A stretch of 22,576 nucleotides of DNA, from IMG/VR virus record IMGVR_UViG_3300030098_004278, positions 1 through 22,576 of that record; one strand, 5' to 3'. Below are positions 1 through 14,999 of the stretch, piece after piece (position 1 is the stretch's first letter; every line of letters starts with the position of its first letter). Both the position numbers and the translations under genes were made by a program. Under the pieces are notes generated by a model. The model saw only the letters and a list, made by a program, of their open reading frames with translations. It ran no database searches and was not told where the DNA came from. Source of the DNA: a virus.

Positions 1-3000
1 TAAGCAACAGAAACAATTATCTCCTGATGAAATTAAGTATAATGAAATACAAGTTAGAATAAAAGATATAGATAAAGAGTTAAAAGAAAATAAAGAAATT
101 CAAGATCATTTGAAAAAAGAATATCCAGGTTTTGAACCTGATTCAAAAAGAAATAGAGAAATAAAGAATTTAAAAGAAGAAAAAGCTATATTGCAAGAAC
201 AAGCATCTGTAATGGAGGCAGTTTCAGATGAACGAAAAGCTGAAGAGACATATGAAGTAGGCCCTACAATTACCACAGATGAAGAAGCATATGATAGAAA
301 ATTTGAAAAGACATGGGGAGTAAAAAAAGGAGAAAGACCATTTAAAGGAGCTATGTTTGTATCTGATGGTGTGACATATGAAATAGACAAGGTTAAGTCT
401 GTGAGTGGTGAAATAGCGAAAGAAATGAACAAAGATATCTTAAGCTTTGCTGAAGAAGGAGTATCTAGTATAGAAGATATTATGTCTAAAGAAGATTTTG
501 AAGAAGGCGATTTATATCAAATGTATGATCTTACTCAATGGACTGATAAAGATGGAAAGAAAATAGACCCTGAACCAGTTTTTGATGTTCCTATAAATGC
601 TTTAGTTAAGGCAGGCTATACTATAATTAACAAACCAGGAGAGAAAGCTGATCCAAGTAAGATTATTTCACCAATTAAAGGAAAGTATGAACAAGCTGAG
701 CTTTTTGAATCAGTCGATGAAGTTATTGAAAAAGGAGTTGACAAAGCAATAGATGAAGATTTGACTCCATTGCCTAAAGGTTATAAAGATATTGATTTTC
801 AACAAGTTGATAAAACTGATAAAGCTAAAATTAAAGATAATAAAGAAGTTGCTAATAAGCTTGCATCTAAACTTAAGAAACAATTTCCTTTTGTAAAAGC
901 TGAAGGAATAGAGAAAGTATTTAATGAAGAAGGTCAAGAAGTAGCTGGTAGAGCCTTTAAGAATATAGTTGAATGGTCTACTACACAAGGAACATTAGAT
1001 ACTATTCCCCATGAGTATGCTCATATTTATATGAAGATTATGGGAAATCATCCTGTTATAAAAGAAGGGTTAAAAAGATTTGGTGGTGAAGAGAATTTAG
1101 TTCAGTATATAGGTGATTACTATGCTGGTAAAATACAAGACAAAGGTTTAGTTTCCAGGTTAAAAACCTGGCTTAGAAAATGGACTAATGCTTTAAAGAA
1201 CTTTTTTGGCATGGCTTTAACTGATAAGGAACTTGGTGATTTAATTTCAGAGAAATTTTATAGTTTTAAAATGAAAGAATCTGATTTATATACTATTAAA
1301 AATAATAAAGTTGAATATCAAGAAATTAAAAAGCCTTCTAAAAAAGAACAAGCTGTTATTCAGCAAAAGTTTAATACTATGATGAATGATATTGAATCTC
1401 AAGTTAGAAAATTTAACAAATCATCAGATACAGTATTTAAGCCTATAATATTTATTGATCAAGTTCTTAAAAGATTTGAAAAACAAAAGAAGAATTGGAT
1501 ACCACTATTTTATAATTGGATGTCTCAACATAAAGATAAAACATTTAATGGTGTAGCTAATGTAGGTCAAACAACTGATGGTGAATCATTTATTAGTAAG
1601 CATGTTAAGCTTTATGGAGATACAGAGTCTATAGAAGCAATAGCATACAAAATAAGATATTTAGTTGACAATGTTACAGATAATGAAATAGCTGTTAGTG
1701 AGGCTGAAGTTGATGCAAGAGAAAATGTTCAAAGAGGTATTGACAGGTCATTAACATTGCTTGGTGATTTTAAAATAACTGTTGCAGAAAGAAATAAATT
1801 ATATGATGCAGCTAATGCAAAAGATTTTGATGAATGGTATAGAGAAGATTTAGCTAGTTTATTAGCATTTAAAAAGAAAGATATAAAGCTATTAAATCAA
1901 GCTCAAAAGGATGCTGCAGCTCAATTACATACATTTTTACATAACAGAATATTAGTTAATCAAGCAGCTGGAGCTGGTAATGCTATAAATTATATTCGTT
2001 TTGACAAGCAGTGGAATGGACAGAAGAAAGAGTTTATATACAAAATTAAATTAGTTGGTCCAGAAGAAAGAGTTTTTAAGAGTGATTATAGCATGGGCAT
2101 TGTTAAACAACAAAGTCAATATGATACAAATCTTATAGCCCATTCAAAACCTCATTTATCTGCCTTATTAAGACAAATGTATTTTGTTACAAATAAAATG
2201 TTTAATCAAATTGAAACAATTGAAAAAGATGCTTATTATATGCTTCATCCTGATTATAAGTTTAAATCTAGAAAAAGTTATAAGTTTTTAAATTCTAAAG
2301 AAGTAAGAGCTTTAGAAAATGTAAAAGTTGGTGGAGTTGTTGATCCGTTTGTATTTTTATTTAGTAGGGGTGATTCAGCTAAAATAGCAACAGGTATAGT
2401 TCAAGGTAAGCATTTTGATATATCTAAAGATAGTAAACTTTGGGATAAATTTTGGACACAAGCTGAAGCAGGTGGGTATATAAACAAAAAACAGAAAGAG
2501 ATTTATTTAAGCTGGAAAAAGAAAGATACACAATATGATATAATTGCAAGAGCAAGAGCTATTGCTGCATTTGATTATATAAATAGCTTTGTTCCAGGCT
2601 GGGTTAATAGAGACTTTGCCGATGTATTGAAAAGAATGAAAGTTCCTTTAACTCCTGCTTTTACAAATAAAAAAGTTCCTGATGGGGAAGCTAGATATAT
2701 ACCTGCAAGCAGAATACAGTTTTCAGTAGGTGATGGACCAAAGCATAATGGTACGGAAAATATTGGACCATTAAAAAATACTTATGAAGGTGATGGCAAT
2801 ACTATTACAAGTAGAAGGTATGTAAGGTCTGTAGCTAAAGCATATGGTATTGATAGGGCTATAGGATGGCTTAAAAGTGTTGTTTATGATGTTGATCCTT
2901 ATTTAGATGATAAAGGCAATATAATACCTTTAAATGATGTTAATATGTTAATGCTTAAACATCAGCACAGTGTTCCAGAGGCTGGTCTTAAAATATGGAA

Positions 3001-5191
3001 TAATAATACTTTAGTTGGAGAAGTTGATTCTGATGGTAACATAAGAGATCCCAAAGGTAATATTATTGATATGATTATGACAGGTGATGAAAGAAAGATG
3101 GCTAGTGGTCATATTAAAGAAGATGGAACAGGATATGTTGATTCTAAAGATCCAGAAGGAAAAGAAAGAACTGTTGAATTTACTATTCCAGGCAGTGCAT
3201 TTGGTTTAATTAAGATGTCTGTAGGGAAGAAGAATACTGTTAAGTTTCCTTTGCAATGGATGAATTATATAACAGATATGGATTTAATTGCAGATTTAAT
3301 AGAAGCTTTTACTGGTCCAAATAGTAGGGCAGATCAAATACTAAGGACTTTAATGATGGCTACAAGAAGTCCAGAAAAGATTAAAATATTAGCTGATAAA
3401 TTAAAATCAAAGTTTAAAGAAGATTTTGATACTGATTTATATAATGATATAATGGCTAGTGGTGGTTTAATACCTAGAGATGCAGGTAGGTTAGAAATTA
3501 CTACAAGAGGAAAGATATTAGATCCTGCTGTTAATTTAGGTGAGCAAATGGGTATACCTCTTTATTTTGCACCTAATTATGCAAGAGATTTAAAGGTTGA
3601 TGAATTGGCTGTTGATATGAAAGCTATAACAAGTAATAGACAATTAATGACTAAGTTTAGAAAAGATACAAACATAACAGGCAAGCCTACATTTAAACAA
3701 ATCAATAAATGGTTAGATAAGAATGATATAAGAGTTTTAGCATATAGAAGTCCTATAGCTTATGCAGGTGGTGTAAATTATTTAAGAATAAAGAGATTAA
3801 CTAATGTTAATGGAACTGTTCAGATACATAGAGATACCACTTTCTTGGGATATGAGGGTGATTATGATGGAGATGCTTTATATATAATGTCTATGCCAGA
3901 TAATATGAATGAAAAATTAAAAGATTATTTTCAGTCTAAAGAATTTATAGATAGTATAGAAGGAGTTGATTTAAAGAAATATATAGGCAAAAGAAATAAA
4001 TTTAATCCATTGCATCCTTCTGATAGGTCTCAAATGATTGAAGCTATGGTTTATTCTAATACTGCCATAGGAGAGATAGCATCATCATCGTTGATATTTG
4101 GTTTAATTAGAAATAGTATGATTAGTGCCACTATTGTTACTAAAAATAATGATACTGAGACAATAGTTCCTAATACAGGTATTATTGATATGGGAAATGG
4201 TGTTAAAGGTACCGCAGATAAGGTATTAAGAATCTATCTACAAGCAGCTGTAGATAATCCTAAGTTCTTACTGTTGAAAGATTGGAATTATAATGTTACA
4301 GATTTTAGAAAGAAATTATTTAAAACTAAAGCTGGCTTAACATTAGATAAATTTGATGTTGAAGATGGAGGATGGATTACTAATGATGTATGGACAGCTT
4401 TTAATGAAGTAATTTGGAAGAGATATAAAATAGCTTCCAATATAAGGAATTTAAATACTGTTGGTGGAGATAATAATTCTGTAGAAGGCATTATAAATGA
4501 TAGTCAAAATTATGCTAGATTTGTAAATGCCAGATTAAATAAGACTTTACCCAATACTAAAGCAATAATGAAAGATGGACATCCTTATAATGTTACGGTT
4601 ACATGGAATAATAATGTAGGTTTATTAGAAAAAGCTGTTACTAAAGTATATGAAATGTTTGATAAATATGTTGAATCTGGTCCTCAAGGTTCTGATTCTA
4701 GAAAGTCTCCATTAAGATTTGATCAAACTACTTATGAAGCAGCACATATGCAAGCTAAAGAAAATATGGATATTAATTCTAAATTAGAAATTTTAAGGAA
4801 CAAAATAGGTAATACTAAGTTTAATGCAGCTCAATCATTTGCTAGAAGTATTTTAAAAGATTCAGAAGTAGCTATGACTTCCAAGGAAACAAAAAGCAGA
4901 AGACCTCTTCAACCTAATAGTTGGCAAACTAATCCTGATTTAGTTAATATAATAATTGAAAAATTAGAACCATTAAAAGATAAAAGTATAGAAGGTCAAG
5001 AAGTTGTAACTTTAATTATGCTTAAAGAAATTAAAAATGGTAATTTAGATTTATTACCTCCTCATGCATATTTACATAAGTCTGTTAATCAATATTATAA
5101 AGAAAATACTAAATATTTAAGAGGTGAGCCTACAGCACAGGAAGCAAGTGATGTTAGCTTGAATGAAGCTAAGAGGAGGAATTGTGATTAA
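1..5191 (+). CDS. Giant zincin / DPBB RNA polymerase protein, 5' partial
   Basis: The reading frame is open from base 2, so the gene begins before the window; the TTG at 110 has no ribosome binding site and is not the start. 1729 residues are visible. Numbering from base 2, HEYAH (337-341) with a downstream acidic stretch GGEENLVQYIGDYYA is a gluzincin-like metallopeptidase site. DYDGD (1287-1291; bases 3860-3874), preceded by YRSPIAYAGG, matches the catalytic DxDGD loop of double-psi beta-barrel RNA polymerases of the single-chain type (QDE-1, YonO, crAss-like phage virion polymerase); the three Asp would hold Mg2+. The fusion of a zincin and a DxDGD polymerase on one very long chain suggests a polymerase packaged in the virion and injected to transcribe early genes, perhaps self-processed. 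Function rests on motif recognition; injection is inferred from family precedent. Confidence 0.8.
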   Translation, partial: KQQKQLSPDEIKYNEIQVRIKDIDKELKENKEIQDHLKKEYPGFEPDSKRNREIKNLKEEKAILQEQASVMEAVSDERKAEETYEVGPTITTDEEAYDRKFEKTWGVKKGERPFKGAMFVSDGVTYEIDKVKSVSGEIAKEMNKDILSFAEEGVSSIEDIMSKEDFEEGDLYQMYDLTQWTDKDGKKIDPEPVFDVPINALVKAGYTIINKPGEKADPSKIISPIKGKYEQAELFESVDEVIEKGVDKAIDEDLTPLPKGYKDIDFQQVDKTDKAKIKDNKEVANKLASKLKKQFPFVKAEGIEKVFNEEGQEVAGRAFKNIVEWSTTQGTLDTIPHEYAHIYMKIMGNHPVIKEGLKRFGGEENLVQYIGDYYAGKIQDKGLVSRLKTWLRKWTNALKNFFGMALTDKELGDLISEKFYSFKMKESDLYTIKNNKVEYQEIKKPSKKEQAVIQQKFNTMMNDIESQVRKFNKSSDTVFKPIIFIDQVLKRFEKQKKNWIPLFYNWMSQHKDKTFNGVANVGQTTDGESFISKHVKLYGDTESIEAIAYKIRYLVDNVTDNEIAVSEAEVDARENVQRGIDRSLTLLGDFKITVAERNKLYDAANAKDFDEWYREDLASLLAFKKKDIKLLNQAQKDAAAQLHTFLHNRILVNQAAGAGNAINYIRFDKQWNGQKKEFIYKIKLVGPEERVFKSDYSMGIVKQQSQYDTNLIAHSKPHLSALLRQMYFVTNKMFNQIETIEKDAYYMLHPDYKFKSRKSYKFLNSKEVRALENVKVGGVVDPFVFLFSRGDSAKIATGIVQGKHFDISKDSKLWDKFWTQAEAGGYINKKQKEIYLSWKKKDTQYDIIARARAIAAFDYINSFVPGWVNRDFADVLKRMKVPLTPAFTNKKVPDGEARYIPASRIQFSVGDGPKHNGTENIGPLKNTYEGDGNTITSRRYVRSVAKAYGIDRAIGWLKSVVYDVDPYLDDKGNIIPLNDVNMLMLKHQHSVPEAGLKIWNNNTLVGEVDSDGNIRDPKGNIIDMIMTGDERKMASGHIKEDGTGYVDSKDPEGKERTVEFTIPGSAFGLIKMSVGKKNTVKFPLQWMNYITDMDLIADLIEAFTGPNSRADQILRTLMMATRSPEKIKILADKLKSKFKEDFDTDLYNDIMASGGLIPRDAGRLEITTRGKILDPAVNLGEQMGIPLYFAPNYARDLKVDELAVDMKAITSNRQLMTKFRKDTNITGKPTFKQINKWLDKNDIRVLAYRSPIAYAGGVNYLRIKRLTNVNGTVQIHRDTTFLGYEGDYDGDALYIMSMPDNMNEKLKDYFQSKEFIDSIEGVDLKKYIGKRNKFNPLHPSDRSQMIEAMVYSNTAIGEIASSSLIFGLIRNSMISATIVTKNNDTETIVPNTGIIDMGNGVKGTADKVLRIYLQAAVDNPKFLLLKDWNYNVTDFRKKLFKTKAGLTLDKFDVEDGGWITNDVWTAFNEVIWKRYKIASNIRNLNTVGGDNNSVEGIINDSQNYARFVNARLNKTLPNTKAIMKDGHPYNVTVTWNNNVGLLEKAVTKVYEMFDKYVESGPQGSDSRKSPLRFDQTTYEAAHMQAKENMDINSKLEILRNKIGNTKFNAAQSFARSILKDSEVAMTSKETKSRRPLQPNSWQTNPDLVNIIIEKLEPLKDKSIEGQEVVTLIMLKEIKNGNLDLLPPHAYLHKSVNQYYKENTKYLRGEPTAQEASDVSLNEAKRRNCD

Positions 5192-8717: not shown

Positions 8718-8860
8718 TCCTTAAACTTTATTCTTTTACTCCTCTTCACAAGTTTCTTTTCTATTGAGTCAAAGACACTAGCTTTAGCTTCTTCTTTTAT
8801 ATAAGGATTATTCAACTTAGAAAGACTGTATTTAAACTCTTTCATTTCTAAATTAATCAT
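8714..8860 (-). CDS. Small basic hypothetical protein (48 aa)
   Basis: ATG at 8860 overlaps the stop of the upstream nuclease gene by 8 bases, the arrangement seen throughout this block. The product is Lys/Glu-rich and predicted helical, with a strongly basic end (KKLVKRSKRIKFKD). No family recognised. It is the last gene of the leftward block, and its TAA overlaps the TAA of the rightward giant gene. The ribosome binding site is weak (GGAAG), so confidence is moderate. Confidence 0.5.
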   Translation of the reverse strand: MINLEMKEFKYSLSKLNNPYIKEEAKASVFDSIEKKLVKRSKRIKFKD

Positions 8861-9224
8861 CTTCCATTCCATGTCTGTCATCATCTTTCCTTATCAGTTT
8901 AATGAAAGTTTCAATAGGAATACAAGCATAAGGATTTCTTCTATTCTTTTTAACAATTAATACAGGAGACAAATCCTCCTTACAGTTGTCTTCGCATTGT
9001 GAAATTGATTGCCAGAATTGAAGTCTTTCAACGTTTTTACATTCAAAGCTGAAAGGGATTGATTTCCTTGCTGCAGGTGACAAGACTATATCTTCTCCTG
9101 TCATTCCCATAGTTTGAGATTTTATATCATCTTCTTCTAGGTTAGGGAATGCATCTCTCAATACATCTCTTACCATATTTTGTAACTTTCTTCCTTTTGC
9201 CTTGCTACTTCTGGGATTTCCCAT
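8853..9224 (-). CDS. PDDEXK-type phage nuclease (resolvase-like)
   Basis: 123 residues. GRKLQNMVRD near the N-terminus, GEDIVLSP (D45), FECKN (E61, K63) and QCEDN (Q76) form the D...ExK...Q core of a PDDEXK nuclease. I recognise the whole arrangement, with AARKSIPFSFECKN followed by a Trp/Gln helix and a PVLIVKKNRR strand, as a small nuclease family common in phage replication modules. A role cutting branched DNA or recombination intermediates is likely but not shown. The ATG overlaps the stop of the upstream gene (TAATG), so translation is coupled. Confidence 0.8.
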   Translation of the reverse strand: MGNPRSSKAKGRKLQNMVRDVLRDAFPNLEEDDIKSQTMGMTGEDIVLSPAARKSIPFSFECKNVERLQFWQSISQCEDNCKEDLSPVLIVKKNRRNPYACIPIETFIKLIRKDDDRHGMEDD

Positions 9225-9490
9225 TATTGAAATAGATCTTCCAAGGAAACTGATTGTTTAGCTTCTTGAACCTCTTTACTTAGTTCGTTTTCAACAGTAA
9301 AGCTAATGAATATTGACTGATCTTCTTTGCCATACTTGCCTTGTTTTATCCATCCAGTCATTAACATTTCTTTACCTTCTATTGTAGCTGTTCCCTTGAA
9401 AAATGGGCTATTCTTGCCATTAGGATCATGTTTTTTCCATCTATTAAGCCAACCTGTTCCTAAATCTCTCCATCTATTGCTTGAAGCCAT
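9224..9490 (-). CDS. Small conserved phage protein, DNA-metabolism context (88 aa)
   Basis: A strong ribosome binding site (AAGGAG) precedes the ATG at 9490. The sequence alternates short beta-like segments (PFFKGTATIEGKEMLMTGWI, then DQSIFISFTV) and ends in an acidic/hydrophobic tail (SVSLEDLFQ). The small beta-rich body with acidic tail recalls ssDNA-binding or accessory proteins, but I cannot assign a family. It is coupled to the PDDEXK nuclease by a 1-base overlap. Confidence 0.7.
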   Translation of the reverse strand: MASSNRWRDLGTGWLNRWKKHDPNGKNSPFFKGTATIEGKEMLMTGWIKQGKYGKEDQSIFISFTVENELSKEVQEAKQSVSLEDLFQ

Positions 9491-10558: not shown

Positions 10559-11401
10559 TTAATATGCTGCTATTGGCCCAGTAGGAACTTTTACTGTTTT
10601 AGCATAGTCCAAGAATCCAGTAGTTAGATAATCATTATTATTGAAATCTGCTACTGTTTGCTTTTCTTTATGCCAAAGAACATGTGTTCCAGCATTAAGT
10701 AGATCCCAAGATGTAATATCTTTACTACCTGTATAATAAGGATCGTTATATATTTGATCTACTACTTTGCCAAGAGTTGATGTAGGAATCTTAGGTATAA
10801 ACTTCTTTCTAATATATCCCATATCATTAATATCAATAGAATCTGTTGTTAATTTACTACATATTCCTGCAAATTCCTTGACATTAGTTCCTGCATGTTT
10901 GATTATTTCAGCTGCTGACTCCATTTCTTCAGCCCAATTTTCATTTTCTTTACTATGCTTAAAGCGATAGCTTTGAAACATTTTCTTAGCCATCATTCCA
11001 TTCTTGCATAACAATCTATATGCAAAGATAGAGAATCTGCCAGATGTTGATCCATCATAACTATTGCTAACCATTACTCCTATACCCAAGTTATCTCCTA
11101 CTTCAACTTCAGCATCTATTTCTTCTGTAGCTTTGTAACATCTCATGAATTGCTTACCATTAAAGAATGTTTTATCTAAAGCAAAGTCTATATCAGAATG
11201 ATCTATAATACTTTCTACCATATTAGTAATTTCTTTATTATTTACTAACATATAGTCTTTACTTACTATGCCTACTTCATTCCAAGGCTTTTCATAATTT
11301 AATTCATTCTTTAGATGAACTGAATAAGCTGATGATTGTAAAGTATCTCCAAATAGAGGTACTTTCTTTATTTCTGCAAATGGGTTGCTAACTTCTTTCA
11401 T
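10559..11401 (-). CDS. DUF932 family protein (phage/plasmid-like)
   Basis: 280 residues. The sequence follows the DUF932/phage-plasmid-like protein pattern: an N-terminal KPWNEVGIVSKDYMLVNN segment, a central NSYDGSTSGRFSIFAYRLLCKNGM, and a C-terminal GTHVLWHKEKQTVADFNNND. The family is widespread in phages and plasmids near replication genes, but its biochemical role is not established. The start overlaps the stop of the Gp157-like gene (TAATG), so both are co-translated with the primase-helicase upstream. Confidence 0.85.
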   Translation of the reverse strand: MKEVSNPFAEIKKVPLFGDTLQSSAYSVHLKNELNYEKPWNEVGIVSKDYMLVNNKEITNMVESIIDHSDIDFALDKTFFNGKQFMRCYKATEEIDAEVEVGDNLGIGVMVSNSYDGSTSGRFSIFAYRLLCKNGMMAKKMFQSYRFKHSKENENWAEEMESAAEIIKHAGTNVKEFAGICSKLTTDSIDINDMGYIRKKFIPKIPTSTLGKVVDQIYNDPYYTGSKDITSWDLLNAGTHVLWHKEKQTVADFNNNDYLTTGFLDYAKTVKVPTGPIAAY

Positions 11402-11892
11402 TATTTTAATCCTTTCACATAAGGGTTCTTCTTTAATTCTACTCCATCAATCTTTTTACCTTTCTTTAGATCTTTGAGTAGATTCTTCTTGTCTAGTTTT
11501 ACTGCTCTATGTTCTACCCAATATTCTTGAGGTATTATAGATTCATCTATTACATTTACAGATGCTGTCTCTAATATCTTTATTGGGTTAAACTCAGAAT
11601 AAGTTGGCATTTTGTCAACAGAAAGATTAGATTCTATGACAAGTTCTTTTAATTTCTTTTGAGCTACTTGTCTTTTCTTTATTTCATCTTCTATTTTCTT
11701 TTTGTATTCTACTGCAAGCTCTATATCTTTATCTAACTTTTTGTAAAACCAATAAACACCATCTTCTTTTACAGCTAACTCATTATACAGTGTAGCTAGC
11801 TGTTCCTTTATCTCTTCTTCGGTAAGGCTAAAGTCATCTTTAGCCATTACTATGTCACTTGTTATATCAATAAAACTTCTTTTTTTTGACAT
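11401..11892 (-). CDS. Siphovirus Gp157-like protein
   Basis: 163 residues. A long charged coiled-coil (about residues 20-90) is followed by ASVNVIDESIIPQEYW, then RAVKLDKKNLLKDLKKGKKIDGVEL. That C-terminal pattern (V..iDE..IP.ey ... DKk.i...lK.G....G.eL) is characteristic of the Gp157 family (PF05565), usually found beside recombination or SSB genes. Exact function is unknown; the family was first linked to phage interference in Streptococcus. Coupled to both neighbours by TAATG overlaps. Confidence 0.75.
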   Translation of the reverse strand: MSKKRSFIDITSDIVMAKDDFSLTEEEIKEQLATLYNELAVKEDGVYWFYKKLDKDIELAVEYKKKIEDEIKKRQVAQKKLKELVIESNLSVDKMPTYSEFNPIKILETASVNVIDESIIPQEYWVEHRAVKLDKKNLLKDLKKGKKIDGVELKKNPYVKGLK

Positions 11893-13649
11893 TAATATCC
11901 TTCCTCTTTTACAATGTTTAAACCATCAAGTCTTAAGTTTACATTTAGTTGTTCTTTTTCTCTGTTAGCAACTGTTTGTATTCTTAGTCTTTTTATCTTA
12001 TTTTTATCCATTTTATCTCTATCGGCATGCAATGAAAGTATTTTATTTGCTGAATAAGCTATTCTAAAGCTACCTCTTGATGCTACTATAGAGTTTTCTG
12101 TTCCTTCTCTTATAGCTCCTTTACTTATTTCAGATACAGTTATCACTACTACATTTTGTCTGATAGCTAAATTTCTTAAGCCTTCAGATATTTCTTCCAT
12201 TTTCATATTAGCATCTTTGTGATTAGTAGCAAGTAATCCCATATGGTCTACTACTACTATTTCAGGTTTTTGAGCTAATACAGATACTCTTTTTTCTATT
12301 TCAAATGGATGACAATTATTAGTATCAAAAGTTAACCATTCAAAGCCTTTGTGAAGACCATTTTTCTTGCCTTTATAATAAGACATTATTTCTTCTTCAC
12401 TCATACCTGTTTTTATTTGTAGAAACCTCATAAATATCTGTCTGGAACTCATTTCAAGTTCTAAGAAATATGTTGGTTTCTTTAATGCACATAGCCAATT
12501 TTGTATTAACATTGTTTTCATTGACTTTGGTGGTGCTTGTATTACAAGTACTTCTCCAGGATAAATAGGAAAATCTTCTCCATACAATGCTCCAAGGTTT
12601 ATAGGTTCAACTTTAGAATCAATAAAATCAAGCAACAAGTCTTCCATTGTTTCTGCTGTTATTGCTTTTTGACTTTTCTTTGAACCATATAATGTACAGC
12701 TAGAATTACAGAAATGATCCATTACTGAATCACTACATCCATATCTATAGCCTTTACCATTGTGACCTGTATAGCAATTTTCAACTATTGTGTCCATTTC
12801 CTTTTTTGGAAATGGTTTGTCTTGCATATCAACTCTTTGTCTGAAGTCTTCCATAACTACTCTTACGACATGTTCTGGATATCTATCTTTAAGCCAAGCT
12901 GCTATTCTTAATGAAACATTATGTCTTGAGCCATAAGAAATACCTTCTAACATCTTTTGTATACAAGGATAATAAAATGAATCTCCTGTTCTGCTACTTG
13001 TTACAACTGGAGTAGTACCAGCTATTTTTACTCTTTTAGTTATATCAAATATAGGAGTTTCTTCTTCATTTTCTATTAAATACCAGTCTGGAATCCTTAC
13101 TTTCTTTGCAAGTTCTTTAATTGTTTCTATATCAGTATGTAATTCAGATTCAGTTATAGGTATTTTAAATAATCCTGATTTACTATTTCTTGTATTAACA
13201 AGTCTTATAATCCTTGTTTTATCTACAACAGCACTATCAGCATAATTAAATATTCCATTAGATGTTAAGCAATCTTTCATTCTAAGATGCAATTCTTTTG
13301 ATGGTTCCCATTTAAAGATACCTTGACTTACTCCTACATGAAATCCTGTTCCAGAAAAGTATAATCTATATATTATATCAAATTCTTTTAAGTATTCACA
13401 TAATCCAATAGTCAATTGTCTTGCTCTTTCAGAGCTGTCGCCATCTACATCAAAGAAAAATTCTTTAGGCATATATATTTTACCACTATATCCTGCCAAA
13501 GTTTGTTTTTCTTTAAAATACTTCATTACATCATCATCATAGTTATATAGACTTGCATAAGTATCTGTTGTGCCTTTCCATTTTATAACATCATCTTCAG
13601 GCATAAAATGGTGTCTATTGGCAATGCCAAATGCAACCTCTTTTATCAT
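11892..13649 (-). CDS. Fused AEP-type primase / DnaB-like replicative helicase
   Basis: 585 residues from ATG 13649 (GGAG binding site). The N-terminal half carries archaeo-eukaryotic primase motifs: FDVDGD (D67, D69), SGTGFHV (99-105, H104) and D143 in DKTRIIRL followed by NSKSGLFKIPI. A PriCT-like helical segment (about 235-290) follows, then four cysteines (C292, C305, C314, C318) that could bind zinc or an Fe-S cluster. The C-terminal half is a RecA-fold DnaB-type motor: Walker A APPKSMKT (372-379), LELEMSSRQIFMRFL, Walker B VVVDH (D468, H469) and a C-terminal R-rich strand. It should prime and unwind at the phage fork. Walker A is degenerate: both usual glycines are replaced (Ala372, Met377). 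Confidence 0.88.
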   Translation of the reverse strand: MIKEVAFGIANRHHFMPEDDVIKWKGTTDTYASLYNYDDDVMKYFKEKQTLAGYSGKIYMPKEFFFDVDGDSSERARQLTIGLCEYLKEFDIIYRLYFSGTGFHVGVSQGIFKWEPSKELHLRMKDCLTSNGIFNYADSAVVDKTRIIRLVNTRNSKSGLFKIPITESELHTDIETIKELAKKVRIPDWYLIENEEETPIFDITKRVKIAGTTPVVTSSRTGDSFYYPCIQKMLEGISYGSRHNVSLRIAAWLKDRYPEHVVRVVMEDFRQRVDMQDKPFPKKEMDTIVENCYTGHNGKGYRYGCSDSVMDHFCNSSCTLYGSKKSQKAITAETMEDLLLDFIDSKVEPINLGALYGEDFPIYPGEVLVIQAPPKSMKTMLIQNWLCALKKPTYFLELEMSSRQIFMRFLQIKTGMSEEEIMSYYKGKKNGLHKGFEWLTFDTNNCHPFEIEKRVSVLAQKPEIVVVDHMGLLATNHKDANMKMEEISEGLRNLAIRQNVVVITVSEISKGAIREGTENSIVASRGSFRIAYSANKILSLHADRDKMDKNKIKRLRIQTVANREKEQLNVNLRLDGLNIVKEEGY

Positions 13650-13710: not shown

Positions 13711-14229
13711 TTAATCCCAAGGATCTGGGGTGCTACTTTCTGTGGCAGGACTATTATTGAGGTATCTTTTGATTCTTTCTTCGCAAGAAGTTTTCATTCT
13801 TTCTACACCAGCTTCATCAAACTCTTCTAAGTCGTTTTTAAAGACTGAAGGAGCAATTATTTCTGAAACATTAGTATAGCCTTCTTTGTTTTTATAGAAA
13901 TAAACATTTACTTTATTTCCAATTAAGTTTTCAGGTTCATCTTCTATTCCAATAGTCATACTACCATCACTACCTTCAAGAACTTCTTTTATCCCTGAAT
14001 TAGAATATCTGTATAAATTCAATACAGCAAATTCTTCATTAGTATCTTTATTATACTTTTCATGTACTCTTAATTTTAAGCTATCAGGATAGCCATCAAA
14101 GAACACATCTAAATATTTAGTTCCTTCTCCTCCAGAATATTTTCCTGGTGAAGCTTTACTCATTACTACTTCGTGCCATCCTTCTCCAAATGACACTCCT
14201 GTTGTTTTCTTTACAGTTAAGGTTTTCAC
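13711..14229 (-). CDS. SSB-like / DUF669-like ssDNA-binding protein
   Basis: 172 residues from a GTG at 14229 that overlaps the TGA of the ATPase gene (GTGA), so it is coupled. The first 120 residues are beta-rich and fit a single OB-type fold (GWHEVVMSKASPGKYSGGEG, then YLDVFFDGY, LIGNKVNVYFYKN). The C-terminus is a linker ending in PDPWD, an acidic-aromatic tip like that of SSB proteins, which recruits partners. Position between a Sak4-type ATPase and the primase-helicase fits an SSB role. Family assignment is by pattern only. Confidence 0.65.
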   Translation of the reverse strand: MKTLTVKKTTGVSFGEGWHEVVMSKASPGKYSGGEGTKYLDVFFDGYPDSLKLRVHEKYNKDTNEEFAVLNLYRYSNSGIKEVLEGSDGSMTIGIEDEPENLIGNKVNVYFYKNKEGYTNVSEIIAPSVFKNDLEEFDEAGVERMKTSCEERIKRYLNNSPATESSTPDPWD

Positions 14230-14972
14230 TTAGTCCCCTTCCTTATTGTTTTTAAACTATATGTTTTGCCTGATCCAGGTGATCCAATAATTAATATTTT
14301 AGCACCTTTCCAGCCTTTTTTCTTAACAGCATCAATTACTAATTGGTAATCTTGTGGTATTTCTGCATCCAATAATTGAGTTCTGTCTTTAGCATTATCA
14401 TATCTTTCAGTTCTTTGTGTTCTCCACATAAAAGTACTATTACCTTTTAAATCTGTAACAGCTTTAGTATAGAATACAAAGTCAAACCATTTAGATATAT
14501 CTTCTTTACTTGATCCATCTATATATGGTATGAGTTTAGTAGTACCATCATCCATATGTTGTGTTTTACTATGACAATTCATTATTACAATGCCTGGAAT
14601 TTTAGTAAGCATATCTAACATTTTATCTAAATTGTTCTTTAGCTTGCCCCATTCCTTTAATTTCATAGTACCATCTTCAAGAGTTAAAGACCTTTGATAT
14701 TTTTTAGATAACTCAGAAACTGTATCTACTACAATTCCTGATATTTCTGTTTCATTTGCAGGTTTTATCTCTGTTTTTTCTTGCTTTACAGTTGTATTGC
14801 CTATCTTTACTTCTTCTACTACTTTTGTAGGCTTGTACAATTGTTTGATTGTAGCTGAAAACTCTTTCCAACTACCTGATTCTAACATTGGATAACCAAA
14901 TAGTTTTTCAACATCTTTTGGGCCACCTAATGTTTTAGACCCATGCTCTAGGTCAAAATATAATAGCTTCAT
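14226..14972 (-). CDS. Sak4/AAA_24-type ATPase, circularly permuted (P-loop at C-terminus)
   Basis: 248 residues; ATG 14972 has a clear AAGGAG site, so the N-terminus is firm. The order of elements is: KLLYFDLEHGSKTLG (3-17, the strand that normally follows the P-loop helix), SWKEFSATIKQL, Walker B GIVVDTVSELS, KLKNNLDKMLDMLTKIPG, sensor strand IVIMNCHSK, then KWFDFVFYTKAV and WRTQRTERYDNAKDR. All are in the order known for Sak4/AAA_24 recombinases. The P-loop strand and Walker A, KILIIGSPGSGKT (Walker A residues 230-237, bases 14262-14285), come last instead of first. Sak4 proteins are RecA-like single-strand annealing or recombination factors; the adjacent SSB-like gene fits. The family call is confident; the permutation is read directly from the sequence. 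Confidence 0.85.
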   Translation of the reverse strand: MKLLYFDLEHGSKTLGGPKDVEKLFGYPMLESGSWKEFSATIKQLYKPTKVVEEVKIGNTTVKQEKTEIKPANETEISGIVVDTVSELSKKYQRSLTLEDGTMKLKEWGKLKNNLDKMLDMLTKIPGIVIMNCHSKTQHMDDGTTKLIPYIDGSSKEDISKWFDFVFYTKAVTDLKGNSTFMWRTQRTERYDNAKDRTQLLDAEIPQDYQLVIDAVKKKGWKGAKILIIGSPGSGKTYSLKTIRKGTK

Positions 14973-14999
14973 TTATTCTCCTTGGTTGATAAGACAAAG

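Follow-up and report, generated by a model that had tools for sequence, protein, structure and literature searches.

Can a Sak4-type recombination ATPase carry its nucleotide-binding loop at the end of the chain instead of at the beginning? The question is raised by sak4cp, a gene in the 22,576-nucleotide stretch of viral DNA analysed here (the window), in which a sequence-only reading had recognised the elements of a Sak4/AAA_24 protein in family order, except that strand beta1 and Walker A came last, and had proposed a natural circular permutation. Circular permutations that cut across the P-loop itself are seldom found in nature, and the documented example of their fixation is a group of ribosome-assembly GTPases. 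Our analyses indicate that sak4cp is very likely (probability approximately 0.88) a naturally circularly permuted Sak4, that is, a single-strand annealing recombinase of the RecA/Rad51 fold. The permutation, taken alone, is very probable; that the protein acts as an ATP-dependent, SSB-assisted annealing recombinase is a likely inference, made without biochemistry.

Motif order and the rotation test

Read from its start codon, the sak4cp chain runs from KLLYFDLEHG through Walker B (79–83), the sensor strand (128–139), KWFDFV and AKDR to KILIIGSPGSGKT (225–237) and a short helix, with the old C-terminal helix (209–219) leading into beta1 via about five residues (Table 1). The protein comprises the RecA core only, its 248 aa including no extra domain, and the RecA C-terminal domain is absent. 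In a 66-sequence alignment, D7 and E9 of beta2, D83, T84 and E87 of the Walker B region (the motif itself being VVDT, 81–84), H134, K195 and R197 are all invariant. We take FDLEHG to be the counterpart of RecA FIDAEHA, the strand of the catalytic glutamate, while the role of K195 and R197 as a basic finger in a C-terminal hairpin is drawn from knowledge of the family and from published work (PMC8093625).

Table 1. Positions of sak4cp, its sequence elements and neighbouring genes in the window.
Feature	Position	Strand	Remarks
sak4cp, Sak4-type RecA-core ATPase, very probably circularly permuted	14226..14972	minus	248 aa, ATG start
AAGGAG ribosome-binding site	14978..14983	minus	ATG 5 nt further on
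New N-terminus, residues 2–11, KLLYFDLEHG	14940..14969	minus	core strand beta2, AAA_24 position 24 onward
Walker B strand and start of next helix, residues 79–87, GIVVDTVSE	14712..14738	minus	
Sensor strand region, residues 128–136 (strand 128–139)	14565..14591	minus	invariant H134
AKDR, residues 194–197	14382..14393	minus	invariant; position of RecA-family finger hairpin
Residues 198–223, canonical C-terminal helix and a few residues, bridging into beta1	14304..14381	minus	
Relocated beta1, P-loop and helix 1, residues 224–245	14238..14303	minus	AAA_24 profile 2–22
Walker A GSPGSGKT, residues 230–237	14262..14285	minus	
SSB-like gene	13711..14229	minus	GTG start overlapping sak4cp stop; next gene downstream in operon
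Primase/DnaB-like helicase, same module	11892..13649	minus	Pfam DnaB_C, E 2.5e-13; PHROG primase, E 1.9e-19
Sipho_Gp157-like gene, same module	11401..11892	minus	Pfam, E 1.3e-14
RusA-like/PDDEXK nuclease, possible Holliday-junction resolvase	8853..9224	minus	PHROG 244, E 8.5e-21; Pfam PDDEXK_15, E 1.5e-7

Homology to Sak4 is evident in profile searches, in which the missing element can also be located. Pfam AAA_24 (PF13479) matches sak4cp at 69.1 bits against a curated cut-off of 27 (E 5.8e-19), with residues 2–197 aligned to positions 24–194 of the 195 in the profile and a second stretch reported; the first 23 positions, corresponding to beta1 and the P-loop, are missing from the N-terminus, and the last 34 aa alone match positions 2–22. 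The two stretches are complementary, with a seam of one residue, and this alignment places the cut point between positions 22 and 24, where a loop connects helix 1 with beta2. The same arrangement is seen with PHROG 124 (‘Sak4-like ssDNA annealing protein’, E 5.4e-20), where residues 4–218 correspond to profile 67–259 and the C-terminal piece to profile 42–65. All 66 representative relatives match AAA_24. When the C-terminus was removed, the remaining 214 aa lost the PHROG 124 match, though the same residues score within the full protein; we take this loss as a filter effect and base no conclusion on it.

Rotation of the protein in silico, by placing its last 25 residues at the front, raised the AAA_24 score from 69.1 to 84.8 bits and converted two partial matches into one end-to-end match, while the score for PHROG 124 (Sak4) rose from 73.1 to 93.5 bits, likewise as a single end-to-end match. 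Profile–profile comparison by hhalign of 66 permuted proteins with 11 canonical Sak4s (HK620, crAss001, Fnu1, phi14:2, EcP1, phiPSA1, an Oceanotoga phage and others) improved from E 2.7e-14 in natural order to 4.7e-25 when rotated, with tails beyond helix 1 trimmed in the rotated set, and extended from beta1 through the C-terminal helix. With tblastn against phage records, natural sak4cp matched one record at E<=0.01 and none was covered to 80%, whereas the rotated protein matched 60 records at E<=0.1, 36 of them with at least 80% coverage and many annotated as Sak4; the E thresholds were unequal, so that the coverage figures are the fairer comparison. Identity to the matched canonical phage records is about 28% or less. 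Unrotated members of the sak4cp family gave partial matches or none against phage records, and the Oceanotoga phage match, when translated, has the canonical order. Walker A comes first in 11 of 11 canonical comparison proteins and last in every callable relative of sak4cp; because it comes last, we class sak4cp as a circularly permuted offshoot and not as an ordinary Sak4.

The C-terminal piece is considered to be the missing Sak4 element, and not a chance Walker A, because the two best PHROG matches of the last 34 aa, phrog_124 and phrog_2872, are both Sak4 families, and because 14 of 19 residues are identical to the N-terminal P-loop of the canonical Sak4 of the Fusobacterium phage Fnu1 (KILIIGSPGSGKTYSLKTI vs KILIIGSSSSGKTVSLRTL). 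In isolation, the 34-aa C-terminus also has weak matches to several generic AAA profiles, and when PDB sequences were searched with a profile of the permuted proteins, only generic P-loops (ClpX, LRRK2) were returned, via residues ~198–248.

Conservation in related viral contigs

Relatives of sak4cp occur in viral contigs at identities from 98% down to about 38–47%, and the order is permuted in all that are callable. Permuted loci numbered 84 in a first pass, 144 (with 93 distinct proteins) in a second and 181 overall, against no canonical locus; some contigs are counted more than once in the total of 181, and seven truncated or split matches could not be called. The distinct genes number 109, every one of them permuted. 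Hence, for callable relatives, the permuted order is fixed across a whole uncultured viral clade. The Walker A residues G, P, G, G, K and T (G-x-P-G-x-G-K-T) are invariant in 109 of 109 distinct genes, and their codons vary synonymously, four glycine and four threonine codons being used; from invariant residues with varied codons we infer that Walker A is under selection.

A hidden N-terminal P-loop was sought in the 168 related loci whose upstream sequence reaches 300 nt or more, by scanning up to 600 nt in three frames, and none was found in frame with the gene; three G4GK[ST]-like strings were present in the scanned sequence, none of them part of a sak4cp gene. AAGGAG or GGAG is kept upstream of the gene in relatives. 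Several claims of the sequence-only reading are upheld: that the Sak4/AAA_24 elements stand in family order except for beta1 and Walker A, all motifs being present; that a strong AAGGAG precedes the start codon; that no stop-free P-loop lies upstream; and, given the same order in 109 distinct genes, that the gene is neither frameshifted nor split.

All but one of the relatives come from metagenomic viral contigs and none from isolates. A first scan of genome contigs gave no match; a second, with a deeper alignment, recovered one metagenome-assembled contig (L236, 2396–3178) binned to Flavobacteriaceae bacterium UBA6231, encoding a permuted relative that is 43% identical and is followed, as in the window, by SSB-like and primase-helicase genes. 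Bacteroidota are therefore possible hosts of these viruses, an inference resting on the binning of this one contig. A scan of viral contigs with the divergent L236 protein as query yielded no new relatives.

Two peculiarities of individual relatives were noted. In L117 (77–828) the gene is frameshifted after AKVKC and the P-loop lies in another frame, probably through a contig error or as a pseudogene. The C-termini of L055, L044, L072, L045 and L083 are variable, and extend beyond the P-loop helix by low-complexity sequence that can reach about 60 aa; such tails are common among relatives, and the tail of the window protein is short.

Predicted fold and comparison with known families

An AlphaFold2 model of sak4cp, built with the 66-sequence alignment, has a mean pLDDT of 90.9 and a pTM of 0.88. 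It contains a strand at 224–230, followed by the P-loop and a helix at 238–242, with mean pLDDT values of 95 (221–230) and 93 (231–240), and confidence falls below 50 in the last three residues only. An earlier run with nine sequences had given low confidence for the C-terminal P-loop, which was raised in the 66-sequence run. Against the PDB, the best VIA-align 2 match is the Sak4 of phage 52A (8rc5; Z 12.7, 167 residues, 3.2 A), followed by RAD51 and its paralogues at Z of about 10. The 8rc5 alignment superposes model residues 1–220 on chain residues 49–259, leaving out the relocated P-loop strand. In the paper describing 8rc5, K41 and T42 of 52A Sak4 are at the nucleotide, and therefore the alignment, in starting at chain residue 49, begins just past the P-loop, as a permutation predicts. 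Foldseek returned no match for the whole model against the PDB at E<=0.001, which is expected because a sequential method was applied to a permuted chain. In BFVD, the model of a 248-aa viral protein with 47% identity superposes on that of sak4cp over 244 columns (TM 0.93), so that the full-length fold has been predicted a second time, independently; the entry also indicates that at least one such protein is already present, unnamed, in a public protein database.

The proposal of a natural circular permutation is thus supported by the rotation scores (higher for the rotated sequence in Pfam, PHROG and profile–profile comparison alike), the Sak4 specificity of the C-terminus, the clade-wide order among the homologues found in related phages and a confident model whose best PDB match is a Sak4. 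It would have been refuted by a standard P-loop upstream, which was not found, or by a fold in which the C-terminal segment fails to complete the core sheet next to FDLEHG. The latter was not seen either, although strand 224–230 is assigned to the sheet by inference, on the strength of its confident prediction as a strand and of the fold match, and the flanking strands were not measured.

Comparison with known systems separates sak4cp from each of them. Like Sak4 (PF13479 AAA_24, PHROG 124; for example HkaL of HK620 and the 52A protein, 8rc5), it consists of the RecA core only and shares Walker A and B, size, the position of the RecA-type catalytic glutamate, the KDR/KNR hairpin and an SSB gene neighbour, with homology supported by both profile and fold; unlike Sak4, it has beta1, Walker A and helix 1 at the C-terminus instead of the N-terminus, and begins at beta2. 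With RAD51, the RAD51 paralogues and RecA (9qn8, 8faz, 4po9) it shares the core fold (Z 7.5–10.2, VIA-align 2), but it lacks their extra N- and C-terminal domains and its order is permuted. The GTPases RsgA/YjeQ/YloQ and RbgA/YlqF present a natural, family-fixed circular permutation of a P-loop NTPase domain (PMC6912228), but these are TRAFAC GTPases with their own motif order, acting in ribosome assembly and not in DNA recombination; an N/TKxD GTPase motif is absent from the sak4cp sequence, and Pfam returns AAA_24 and no GTPase family. The sequence-only reading knew of no permuted Sak4, and we likewise found no description of a permuted Sak4/AAA_24, RecA or Rad51 in the open-licence literature searched, although such absence is weak evidence.

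That sak4cp has remained permuted through deep divergence implies that an N-terminal position of the P-loop is dispensable for the recombinase fold, and makes it a natural tool for probing the roles of chain ends in filament formation. Searches that demand an N-terminal Walker A, and structure aligners that work sequentially, miss or under-score proteins of this kind, as in the Foldseek result above, and viral data may therefore contain further permuted ATPases that have been overlooked.

Gene neighbourhood, proposed function and alternatives

The gene downstream of sak4cp is a separate SSB-like gene, as the sequence-only reading had held, although the SSB matches are weak. It adjoins sak4cp in 146 of 146 loci and is followed by the primase-helicase gene in 145 of 146. 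Its homologues have acidic tails, with frequent endings IPF, LPF, DPF, PWD or DDW, and PHROG SSB families 378 and 743 each match 3 of 26 homologues, weakly (best E 4.9e-4); on these profile matches and the acidic tail rests the likely identification of its product as the cognate SSB partner of sak4cp. Up to 80% of known sak4 genes have ssb neighbours, and in HK620 the SSB stimulates Sak4, an ATP-dependent annealase (PMC5928155); orf157-like genes, too, are known as sak4 neighbours (PMC8093625), and the module in the window includes a Gp157-like gene. A second small SSB-like gene (9224–9490, minus) lies beside the RusA-like gene (PHROG 18154 SSB, E 2.5e-5), and the module may possibly encode two SSBs. 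In the primase-helicase, the Walker A of the DnaB-like helicase half is unusual: it reads APPKSMKT, with neither of the two glycines, and APPKHMKT in the L236 relative.

The strongest functional clue is an exchange between sak4cp and ERF annealases (PF04404), which occupy the same slot ahead of the same SSB-like gene in sister phages. A scan with the SSB-like gene added 75 loci, 42 with a permuted Sak4, 32 with an ERF, none with both and one with neither (L195, for which the upstream sequence is too short); the ERF assignment was confirmed by Pfam in six loci. Because ERF replaces it there, sak4cp is considered to fill the annealase slot. The ERF fold is unrelated to Sak4, belongs to a Rad52-like superfamily in published classifications and has no P-loop; no ERF (PF04404) match to sak4cp was obtained by Pfam. 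Neither an unpermuted sister nor an evolutionary intermediate was found in this gene slot among the 75 loci.

In the mechanism that we propose, the ends of an ancestral Sak4, before beta1 and past the C-terminal helix, would have been joined through residues ~198–223, and new ends opened in the loop linking helix 1 and beta2, to give a chain that runs from beta2 with the catalytic glutamate through Walker B, the sensor, the KDR hairpin and the C-terminal helix to beta1, Walker A and helix 1. On folding, the full ATP site would be rebuilt, with the C-terminal Walker A beside the N-terminal catalytic glutamate. We further infer that the protein binds ATP, oligomerises and, together with the SSB encoded by the overlapping gene, assembles on ssDNA, and that it anneals complementary strands while phage DNA is replicated and recombined.

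Four alternatives may be considered. The one that survives best, although unlikely, accepts the fold as described and holds that sak4cp has ceased to be an annealing recombinase and serves replication as an accessory ATPase within the primase-helicase operon, loading for instance a helicase or SSB. Its almost constant proximity to SSB-like and primase-helicase genes is consistent with this, and Rad51 paralogues are often accessories; against it, the ERF annealase takes the same slot in sister phages and is never found beside sak4cp, and the characterised Sak4 that adjoins its SSB is an ATP-dependent annealase (PMC5928155). A second, very unlikely, alternative sees a degenerate Sak4 remnant without a P-loop, joined to an unrelated C-terminal GxxGxGKT that does not complete the fold. 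P-loop motifs are common, and the weak generic AAA matches of the C-terminus could be cited in its favour; however, the C-terminal piece fills exactly what the N-terminal profile match leaves out, its two best PHROG matches are Sak4 families, the P-loop is invariant in 109 genes, as are the catalytic glutamate, Walker B and KDR residues in the 66-sequence alignment, and the model is confident in this region (pLDDT 93–95).

Less probable still is the view that FDLEHGSKT at the N-terminus is a canonical Walker A in degenerate form and that the loop at the C-terminus is an additional one, with no permutation at all. DLEHGSKT in the window superficially resembles GxxxxGKT, but we rejected it as a candidate Walker A because the likeness is lost in relatives (GSQT, GYKS, NSFKS) in which D7 and E9 are invariant, because AAA_24 aligns the segment to the strand past the P-loop, and because the 8rc5 fold match starts beyond the nucleotide-site residues. 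Finally, metagenomic contigs are prone to frameshift and misassembly, and the L117 relative is frameshifted within the gene, but an artefact or gene fission hiding a normal upstream P-loop is all but excluded because 109 distinct genes, drawn from many contigs, have the identical order, because a Shine-Dalgarno sequence and start codon stand immediately before beta2, and because no in-frame P-loop occurs in the upstream sequence scanned, up to 600 nt.

Returning to the permuted annealing recombinase as the preferred reading, a bolder version of it is possible, in which a whole viral lineage recombines DNA using a RecA-family ATPase with relocated chain ends, and in which filament assembly or nucleotide control may be altered relative to every known RecA/Rad51/Sak4 protein. 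Such alteration is conceivable because the ATP loop is made last and bears a free, variable tail, and because the ancestral ends are joined; the tail past helix 1 might act as a gate, for example, or the ATP site might be completed in step with translation of the SSB gene that overlaps sak4cp.

Two further observations concern other genes. In the ERF-bearing locus L220 (765–2302), erf is preceded by two genes whose products resemble a Prok-JAB protease (PF14464, E 2e-6) and ThiF/E1 (PF00899, E 1.7e-22), and the same pair occurs in L178, L188, L191, L192, L205 and L221; it is possibly a phage ubiquitin-like handling pair. In the window itself, a plus-strand ORF of 1693 aa (110–5191), with a single, insignificant PHROG match, combines a zincin-like HEYAHIY motif with DYDGD, recalling the DxDGD of RNA polymerase, and by motif resemblance only it might represent a virion RNA polymerase-type polyprotein.
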